Assembly (NCBI RefSeq): GCF_000526155.1
Contig: NZ_JAFN01000001.1
Location: 1,306,501 to 1,370,500, forward strand
Origin: Deferrisoma camini S3R1
GTDB lineage: Bacteria; Desulfobacterota; Deferrisomatia; Deferrisomatales; Deferrisomataceae
DNA length: 64,000 nt
Reading direction: 5' to 3'
Below, one piece after another: positions 21,842-31,944 of this stretch. Every line of letters starts with the position of its first letter. Positions within the stretch are counted from its first letter, which is position 1. The translations under genes and the position numbers were made by a program. The notes below the pieces were generated by a model. The model was given only the letters and a program-made list of their open reading frames with translations, had not been told where the DNA came from and ran no database searches.

Positions 21842-23275
21842 TCATAGGACGTTGGGACGCCTCCCAGCCTTCCTGGGCCGCAGGCCCAGGTGCTCGGCCA
21901 CGGCCTCGGCCGAGGCCTCCAGCGCCACGGGGCGGTTCACCAGCTCCGGCCGGGGCTCCACCTCGTACTCCGGGTCCAGAGTACCCGCGAAATACGCCTC
22001 TTGGAACCCCGCGAACTTGAGCTGGTGGCTGGTGGAGTCGCACACGAACCGGCCCGTGGCCGGGATCAGCCCCTGGGCCAGGGCCTTGCGCAGGCCGGCC
22101 ACGGCCTCTCCGCCCTGGGTGCACACCACGTGGCCGTGGCGGTTCACGTGGAGCATGGTGTCCAGGATCTCCTGCTCGGTCACGCTCACGCAGGTGAACC
22201 GGTCCCGGTACTCCTCCTCCACCAGCTGGCGCACCTTGGGGAACGACACCGGGTTGCCGATCATCGCGGCCTGGGCCACGCTGGGCCGCACCCGCACGGG
22301 CTCGTACCGGCCGGTGCTCCGCCACCGGGCCACGGGGTCGGCGTGCTCGCTCTGCACTCCGAGGATCCGGGGCAGCCCGTCGGTCACGCCCAGGCGCCGC
22401 AGGTCCCAGAACCCCTCCAGGATGGCGGTGACGTTGCCCGCGTTGCCGATGGGCACGGCCACGGTGGCGTCCTCCACCGCCCAGCCCAGCTGCTGGGCCA
22501 CCTCGAAGGCGAAGGACTTCTGGCCGTTGATCCGCACCGGGTTCTTGGAGTTGAGCAGGAACACCTCGTAGCGGTCGGCCAGCTCCTCCACCAGCCGCAT
22601 GCAGTCGTCGAACACCCCGGGCACCTCGATCACCCGGGCCCCGCTGCCCAGGGGCTGGGAGAGCTGCTGGGGGGTCACCCTGCCCCGGGGCAGGAGCACG
22701 GCCGAGCGCACCGCGGCCTTGGGCAGGTACGACAGGTACAGGGCGGCTGCGGCCGAGGTGTCGCCGGTGGAGGCGCAGATGCCCAGCACCGTGCCCGGCC
22801 GGCGGGTGCGCAGGTAGTGGTTCAGAAAGCTGATGGCGCTCGCCATGCCCCGGTCCTTGAACGAGGCCGAGGGGTTCTGGCCGTCGTTCTTGACGAAGAA
22901 CTCGGCGCCCACCCAGTCCGCCAGCTCGGGGTTCGCCCGCACGAGCGGGGTGTGGCCCTCGCCCAGGTACACCACGTCCTCCAGAGGCACGTGGGGCAGG
23001 ACGAGCTCGTGGAAGCAGAAAATCCCCTGCAGGGCCTCCACCCCCACGGCCCGCCGCAGGTCGAACACCCGGCGCCACTCGTCCCCGCCGCGGTCCCGGA
23101 GCGCCTCGAAGTTCTCGTCGCGCACCCGCAGCAGGCCCCCGCACGAGGGGCAGGTGTAGAGCAGCCGGTCCAGGTCTTCGGTGGCCCCGCACCGGATGCA
23201 GGCGTACACCATGCGGGGCCGATGGTGGGGCATCACGTCGATGCCCGTCAGATCTCGGATCTCTTCGGGAAGCAC
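21842..23275 (-). CDS. thrC: Threonine synthase
   Basis: A 477-residue PLP-dependent threonine synthase, converting O-phosphohomoserine to threonine. An N-terminal zinc-ribbon-like stretch (CIRCG...CPSCGG) precedes the catalytic domain. The PLP lysine is in NPSASFKDRGMA, the phosphate-binding loop resembles GNAGNVTAIL, and the asparagine-rich NDGQNPSAS is typical. I prefer the GTG at 23275 because AGAGGAG lies 5 bp upstream; an upstream ATG at 23314 would translate repeat DNA. The last ~10 residues (KAGRRPNVL) are encoded by B- and F-class repeat sequence. Confidence 0.93.
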   Translation of the reverse strand: MLPEEIRDLTGIDVMPHHRPRMVYACIRCGATEDLDRLLYTCPSCGGLLRVRDENFEALRDRGGDEWRRVFDLRRAVGVEALQGIFCFHELVLPHVPLEDVVYLGEGHTPLVRANPELADWVGAEFFVKNDGQNPSASFKDRGMASAISFLNHYLRTRRPGTVLGICASTGDTSAAAALYLSYLPKAAVRSAVLLPRGRVTPQQLSQPLGSGARVIEVPGVFDDCMRLVEELADRYEVFLLNSKNPVRINGQKSFAFEVAQQLGWAVEDATVAVPIGNAGNVTAILEGFWDLRRLGVTDGLPRILGVQSEHADPVARWRSTGRYEPVRVRPSVAQAAMIGNPVSFPKVRQLVEEEYRDRFTCVSVTEQEILDTMLHVNRHGHVVCTQGGEAVAGLRKALAQGLIPATGRFVCDSTSHQLKFAGFQEAYFAGTLDPEYEVEPRPELVNRPVALEASAEAVAEHLGLRPRKAGRRPNVL

Positions 23276-23287
23276 GGGACTCCTCTT

Positions 23288-23350
23288 TGGGCCTTCGGCC
23301 CGCTGAAAGGCCAAAAGGCTGGAAGGCTAGGAGGCTGGGAGGCTAGAAGG
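23288..23350. repeat. UUCG hairpin plus B-class array
   Basis: GGGCCTTCGGCCC then 8-bp units GCTGGAAG, GCTAGGAG, GCTGGGAG, GCTAGAAG. The array lies just upstream of the thrC ribosome site. Confidence 0.75.
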
Positions 23351-23393
23351 CCTGAGACTCTCCTAGCGGTTACAGGATCACGGTCCGGGACAC

Positions 23394-23595: not shown

Positions 23596-23795
23596 GTTTC
23601 CACACGGGCCTGTGGATAACGTGTGGACGACGGTGTGGATACCCGGGAAAACCTCCGGGACCAAAGGGCCCCTGGCCAAATCGCACATTTTTTGTGCAAC
23701 GATAAACACTCAACGATTTCAATATATTATGAAAAACCCGTTGATCCGCCCCGGCTTTTCGGCCCTGCCGGCCGATCCGAGGGCGATTATCCACA
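23596..23795. other. DnaA-box cluster with AT-rich stretch: candidate replication origin or DnaA-binding locus
   Basis: Perfect DnaA boxes TGTGGATAA (23611-23619) and TTATCCACA (23787-23795) flank near-matches TGTGGACGA (23622-23630) and TGTGGATAC (23634-23642); a weak inverted GTTTCCACA lies at 23596-23604. The first three boxes start 11 and 12 bp apart, about one helical turn. Between them and the last box is an AT-rich segment (about 23680-23745) unique in this GC-rich DNA, with two CAACGAT repeats and a GCACA/TGTGC hairpin. No dnaA, dnaN, gidA or parA gene adjoins, so chromosomal oriC is unproven; DnaA titration or autoregulated transcription are alternatives. Confidence 0.5.
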
Positions 23796-23832: not shown

Positions 23833-24522
23833 ATGGTCGACGTCACCTACCACGGACACGCCTGCTTCCTGCTGGACGACGGCGCCCACCGGGTCCTCAT
23901 CGACCCGTTCCTCTCGGGCAACCCCAACGCCCGGGTCGGGCCCGAGGCCTTCGACCGGCTCGACGCGATCCTGGTCACCCACGGCCACGCCGATCACCTG
24001 GGGGACGCCGTGGAGATCTCGAAGCGCACGGGTGCGCCGGTGGTGGCCCCGTTCGAGCTGGCCATGTTCTGCCAGCGCCGGGGGGCCGTGGTGCACCCCA
24101 TGCACATCGGGGGCGGCCACCGCTTCGAGTTCGGTCGGGTGAAGCTCACCATCGCCCACCACGGCTCGGCGTTCGTGGACAAGGGCACCGAGTACACCGG
24201 CAACCCCTGCGGCTTCGTGCTCGAGCTGGGGGGACTCACCCTGTACCACGCCGGCGACACCGGGCTGTTCTACGACATGAAGCTCATCGGCGAGATGAAC
24301 CGGATCGACGTGGCGTTCCTGCCCATCGGCGACAACTTCACCATGGGGCCCGAGGACGCGGCCAAGGCCGTGGAGCTGATCCGCCCCCGGTACGTGGTGC
24401 CCATGCACTATGCGACCTTCGACGTGCTGGTGCAGAGCCCGGGCGAGTTCGCGTCCCTGGCCGGCGGGCACGGAGCCGACGTGGTGGTGATCGGGTTCGG
24501 CGACACCCACCGGTTCGGCTGA
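23833..24522 (+). CDS. UPF0173-type metal-dependent hydrolase (metallo-beta-lactamase fold)
   Basis: A 229-residue protein of the UPF0173/YtkL-like family. The metal motif THGHADHLGD is near residue 49, with further ligands in IAHHGSAF and LYHAGDTGLF and the final PMHYATFD. The fold binds two metal ions and hydrolyses an unknown substrate. AAAGGAGGAG sits 6 bp before the ATG. The upstream region is the DnaA-box cluster, so this gene's promoter would lie within it. Confidence 0.9.
   Translation: MVDVTYHGHACFLLDDGAHRVLIDPFLSGNPNARVGPEAFDRLDAILVTHGHADHLGDAVEISKRTGAPVVAPFELAMFCQRRGAVVHPMHIGGGHRFEFGRVKLTIAHHGSAFVDKGTEYTGNPCGFVLELGGLTLYHAGDTGLFYDMKLIGEMNRIDVAFLPIGDNFTMGPEDAAKAVELIRPRYVVPMHYATFDVLVQSPGEFASLAGGHGADVVVIGFGDTHRFG

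Positions 24523-29616: not shown

Positions 29617-31944
<2,328 letters not shown>

Follow-up and report, generated by a model that had tools for sequence, protein, structure and literature searches.

The chromosome of Deferrisoma camini S3R1 carries, upstream of a metal-dependent hydrolase gene, a cluster of DnaA boxes (site A) that we interpret, with a probability of about 0.58, as a stand-alone DnaA control element of the DARS type (DnaA-reactivating sequence) and neither as an origin of replication nor primarily as a promoter. We are considerably more confident that it is, in one form or another, a specific DnaA-binding locus with a control function away from the origin. At the level of sequence, site A is one of two copies of a conserved composite with fixed geometry, lying away from the origin.

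The genome is a single contig of 4,236,551 bp, and the stretch analysed here, referred to as the window, covers 64,000 bp of it (G000:C1:1306501-1370500). In window coordinates, site A and its neighbouring genes comprise the following parts:

21842-23314 (ORF limits), minus strand: divergent neighbour, threonine synthase gene thrC (TIGR00260), true start probably near 23278
23596-23604, plus strand: DnaA box I, GTTTCCACA, opposed to boxes II-IV
23611-23619, minus strand: DnaA box II, perfect TTATCCACA
23622-23630, minus strand: DnaA box III, TCGTCCACA, two mismatches, 11 bp from box II
23634-23642, minus strand: DnaA box IV, GTATCCACA, one mismatch, 12 bp from box III
23643-23680, no strand: spacer
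23676-23745: AT-rich tract, where AT content over 60-70 bp reaches its maximum for the window (up to 70%)
23681-23699, no strand: dyad TCGCACATTTTTTGTGCAA, with its 15-bp core GCACA-N5-TGTGC at 23683-23697
23717-23729, plus strand: IHF-like site TTTCAATATATTA, one mismatch to WATCAANNNNTTR, inside the AT-rich tract
23787-23795, plus strand: DnaA box V, perfect TTATCCACA, downstream, kept in the sister species
23833-24522, plus strand: neighbouring gene for a UPF0173 metal-dependent hydrolase (NF001911), outside the element

With five boxes of at most two mismatches in 200 bp, site A is the densest cluster in the window, where the next separate cluster has three. An earlier note on this DNA had described two perfect boxes and two near-matches, three of them starting 11 and 12 bp apart (23611, 23622 and 23634), next to an AT-rich stretch, and all of these features are real. 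Its list lacked box I, the CCACA core of which is turned towards box II, 14-15 bp away (measured between 9-mer starts), in nearly all relatives. The positions of boxes III and IV are conserved in the order and the phylum, while the spacer is conserved in length and not in sequence, with 48-49 bp from the start of box IV to GCAC. Because it is conserved in relatives, the box pattern is not a product of chance.

Two other features of the window were recorded. A dispersed GCTAGGAGGCTGGGAGGC repeat lies beside a GGCCTTCGGCCCG motif 5' of thrC (window 23290-23352), and the same pair occurs upstream of dnaA, near G000:C1 3,125,905; in the 0.86 Mb of genome sampled, the 18-mer GCTAGGAGGCTGGGAGGC repeat has 8 occurrences and GGCCTTCGGCCCG has 38. 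An ORF at about 29650-31944 on the plus strand has, judging by its translation, HsdM-like features, those of the DNA methylase in a type I restriction-modification system.

The AT-rich tract adjoining DnaA boxes is what would speak for an origin at site A, be it the chromosomal one, a second one or a relic, and the earlier note had proposed the site as a candidate oriC. However, dnaA starts at 3,126,246, with perfect boxes just upstream and a further box cluster in the dnaA-dnaN spacer, perfect boxes thus flanking the gene on either side. GC skew, read from sampled stretches of the genome, has a broad cumulative minimum inside which dnaA falls. It is positive in the stretches up to and including the one that starts at 1.02 Mb and negative in those from 1.06 Mb onward, and this switch at 1.04-1.06 Mb puts the skew terminus at ~1.05 Mb, 0.28 Mb from site A (1.330 Mb), where the skew does not switch. 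The origin is thus placed at ~3.126 Mb, and site A as oriC is rejected on the location of dnaA together with the skew; another DnaA-box cluster near the skew minimum is also the counter-evidence that the earlier note had itself named. In addition, the dnaA-linked origin region has no match at E <= 1e-4 to our sequence model of the element (R2, below), and therefore site A is not a copy of the origin region. We give an origin at site A almost no credence. The same data lay out the chromosome as two replichore arms of ~2.08 and ~2.16 Mb, with site A ~86% and the second copy, site B, ~44% along opposite replichores. A dif site in the AT-rich tract, considered by eye, was set aside because of the distance to the skew terminus and because the tract varies.

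A genome-wide count of perfect TTATCCACA boxes, suggested in the earlier note as a check, found only 8 in 4.24 Mb (2 for a control pattern), of which 5 are around dnaA and oriC, 2 at site A and 1 at site B. This lone eighth box belongs to a second copy of the element at 4,083,928 (~4.084 Mb), where tgt and a DUF2088-like gene (named from reading its translation) converge; the stop codon of the latter overlaps box II of site B. Boxes, spacing, dyad and IHF-like site are the same in both copies: box I is opposed to boxes II-IV, whose starts follow one another at 11 and 12 bp, and from the start of box IV it is 48-49 bp to a 15-bp dyad, GCACW-N5-TGTGC. The distance from box I to box II is 15 bp in site A and 14 bp in site B. 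Sites A and B account for two of the only three matches to the dyad core in the genome, and on this count the idea that the dyad marks a general regulon was rejected.

Could the element instead serve as a DnaA-controlled promoter of the UPF0173 hydrolase gene, as had also been suggested? It does lie 5' of this gene in six genomes of the order Deferrisomatales (G000, G001, G002, G003, G004 and G007), even where thrC no longer adjoins. Yet site B lies between convergent genes and is therefore unsuited to a promoter, four genomes of the order have the hydrolase without the element upstream (G005, G006, G010 and G011), and elsewhere the element is found at mazG 3' ends and other sites with unrelated neighbours. 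We rejected a promoter as the main function on the convergent second locus and the varied neighbours, and regard this alternative as very improbable.

Both copies recur in the order. A degenerate site A is present in G008. The site B layout is found downstream of tgt in 8 of the 10 genomes examined, from four families (G000, G001, G003, G005, G007, G008, G009 and G010), some copies having degenerate boxes, and in G011 the core is kept next to DUF2088 with tgt absent. The spacers of different copies are unrelated in sequence, yet nearly all agree in length to +/-1 bp, and across the order the last box is followed by GCAC at 48-49 bp. The triple-box pattern occurs twice each in G000, G001, G003 and G007, with one control match across all 12 genomes of the order; the second match in G003 is the dnaA-dnaN origin region and not the element. 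A strict pattern search recovered the element in only two families of the order, a limit of sensitivity that was exposed by a profile model.

To the phylum we applied two sequence-only models. R1, built from 14 elements of the order, found loci in other families. R2, with 20 training sequences that match by construction, has hits in 122 of the 395 genomes of the phylum (E <= 1e-4), mostly at full length and with 1-6 per genome; these E-values are rough (shortened calibration), and some of the weaker matches may be ordinary box clusters. In the D. camini genome R2 has exactly two matches, both far from dnaA. At all 17 phylum loci measured, the last box is followed by TTGC at 46 or 47 bp and by GCA at 60 or 61 bp, three f15 loci having TTGA instead of TTGC, and this dyad distance is kept in G207, G077 and G221 even though the local R1 match stopped before the dyad. 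Boxes I and II are 14 bp apart in most of the phylum.

The genomic setting of these loci varies. Neither dnaA nor dnaN was found at any of the phylum loci checked for neighbours. The 3' end of mazG lies at or near the element in 16 genomes of four families (f30, f15, f85 and f48), and other neighbours include tgt, a transporter/DUF3786-like pair and tex. The mazG product is an NTP pyrophosphohydrolase, and the element loci with this neighbour include L207-L211, L214, L215, L217, L219, L222, L223 and L225. Four genomes (G005, G007, G044 and G213) carry 4 to 6 element matches rather than one or two. With dnaA at 0.5 kb, G106 has its element (1.04 Mb) about two thirds of the way along the arm; the skew sampled in G324, G041 and G287 gave too noisy a signal for locating their elements on the arms.

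This architecture bears on another proposal of the earlier note, a DnaA titration site, at which boxes would merely soak up DnaA. Clusters of DnaA boxes and titration loci away from oriC occur in B. subtilis, and we know of none there with a fixed composite architecture including a dyad. High-affinity off-origin boxes in two copies would suit titration, which has been reported for E. coli (PMC12371093). However, titration needs no fixed 46/47-bp dyad distance, no opposed box and no IHF-like site. The off-origin, DnaA-binding part of the proposal stands, while the architecture fixed across the phylum points to a specific control element rather than to simple titration, which we consider quite unlikely.

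Which proteins might act at the element besides DnaA? The D. camini genome encodes IHF-alpha, above the cut-off, and an IHF-beta-like protein below it that is probably IHF-beta. An IHF-like site lies past the dyad in site A, in most Deferrisomatales copies of site A and in several relatives. Downstream sites of this kind, in the same orientation, were found at 8 of 31 loci where 1.4 were expected, other positions being near background. Most elements of family f30 are without one, and because it is missing from these the predicted IHF-like site is at best accessory.

A stand-alone Fis was not found in the D. camini genome, only Fis-type C-terminal domains in larger proteins. In the order, the motif GCACA-N5-TGTGC agrees with a loose Fis consensus. 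Fis was nevertheless rejected as the protein that binds the dyad, given the lack of a stand-alone Fis and phylum dyads (TTGCCY...GGCAA) that do not fit consistently. The product of L193:514-1749 (G000:C1, ~20.4 kb) has an N-terminus that resembles a receiver in degenerate form, its C-terminal domain matches E. coli Fis at 37% over 73 residues, and it is a possible candidate for the dyad-binding factor. In a PF00308 search no Hda-like protein was seen, the matches being dnaA and four low-scoring genes only. These four, with identical scores (G000:C1 218808, 786347, 1221828 and 3148009), probably encode the IstB-like transposase helper of an insertion sequence.

From the arrangement of sites we infer binding of DnaA and IHF, a dyad-binding protein and release of ADP. 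In the scheme we propose, DnaA would form a head-to-head pair on boxes I and II and a head-to-tail row on boxes II-IV. The protein on the dyad, together with IHF, would fold the DNA and bring both into contact with the DnaA complex. This complex would then alter which nucleotide DnaA carries, most likely through release of ADP, such that ATP-DnaA could re-form. The firing time of oriC would thus vary with the copy number and occupancy of sites A and B.

The main rival to this DARS reading is a datA-like inactivator, at which DnaA and IHF would stimulate the hydrolysis of DnaA-bound ATP and lower initiation after oriC has fired. Like the element, datA is an off-origin DnaA-box cluster with an IHF site. 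With no Hda-like protein seen in the PF00308 search, another off-switch would be useful, and tandem boxes of one direction with an IHF site are features of datA (PMC5742627). Moreover, datA-like inactivation or titration would leave similar traces in sequence, which counts against the DARS reading. The layout of datA differs, however, and in E. coli it lies near oriC, whereas site A is near the terminus. In addition, the essential boxes of datA share one direction (PMC5742627), whereas here an opposed box I facing box II, a hallmark of DARS, is conserved. On balance we consider a datA-type function unlikely.

We return to DARS, known from work on E. coli and related bacteria, as the closest known system. 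The opposed box I with head-to-head binding of DnaA is the hallmark of this class (PMC5742627; PMC8682772), and in site A, in site B and at nearly all phylum loci box I likewise runs opposite to the boxes that follow it, II and III. According to reviews, the spacings of boxes I-II and II-III are identical at DARS1 and DARS2 (PMC5742627). The DARS2 core is conserved among gamma-proteobacteria (PMC4245941), and DARS-like sequences occur in many proteobacteria (PMC10380432). Comparison within E. coli is uninformative because DARS1 and DARS2 are near-identical there (at least 95% in all 5374 matching genomes). A fixed composite of boxes and dyad in a separate phylum would make off-origin DnaA control older and wider. 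It would also point to a missing protein partner and make it testable how DnaA is switched where neither Hda nor a stand-alone Fis can be recognised.

DARS2, in the rppH-mutH region, shares the core spacing of DARS1, with box II at the same distance, and has TTGC 46 bp after box III. It also requires IHF (PMC4245941), and the element here has a predicted IHF-like site. It differs in that Fis and Fis-binding sites, which characterise DARS2, were not demonstrable in the D. camini genome (no stand-alone Fis), and in its right dyad arm, GCAA, which lies 58 bp from the last box as opposed to 60-61 bp in the phylum element. The alignment of R2 to DARS1 stays in register as far as TTGC but has a weak score (8.8 bits; E = 0.016 over 14 kb), without genome-wide significance. 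R2 scores the DARS2 core below DARS1, and it gives a stretch close to oriC of E. coli almost the score of DARS1. Because this alignment is weak and the TTGC agreement with DARS1 and DARS2 was noticed after the fact, we claim likeness of function, with an element that would work like DARS, and not proven homology.

DARS1 (101 bp) is intergenic between bioD and uvrB and does not require Fis. It has two tandem boxes 12 bp apart where the present element has three (11 and 12 bp), and its dyad is degenerate. In both, box I is opposed to a tandem row. From box I (TTATCCACT) to box II (TGTGGATAA) there are 14 bp in DARS1, a spacing shared by site B and by most phylum loci (site A has 15 bp), followed by 12 bp to box III, and box II is a perfect TGTGGATAA as it is in sites A and B. 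TTGC follows the last box of DARS1 at 47 bp and GCG at 61 bp, distances that also occur at the phylum loci, the shared right-arm motif being GCR. Both are about 100 bp overall, intergenic and on a replichore arm, and in D. camini there are two such intergenic elements per chromosome, between oriC and the terminus, as is the case for DARS. We tentatively propose, at somewhat less than even odds, that the element represents an undescribed, phylum-wide class of DnaA control, in which a putative protein on the fixed-distance TTGC-N10-GCA dyad acts on the DnaA complex, and of which DARS1 and DARS2 of E. coli may be derived members, with the left half-site retained.
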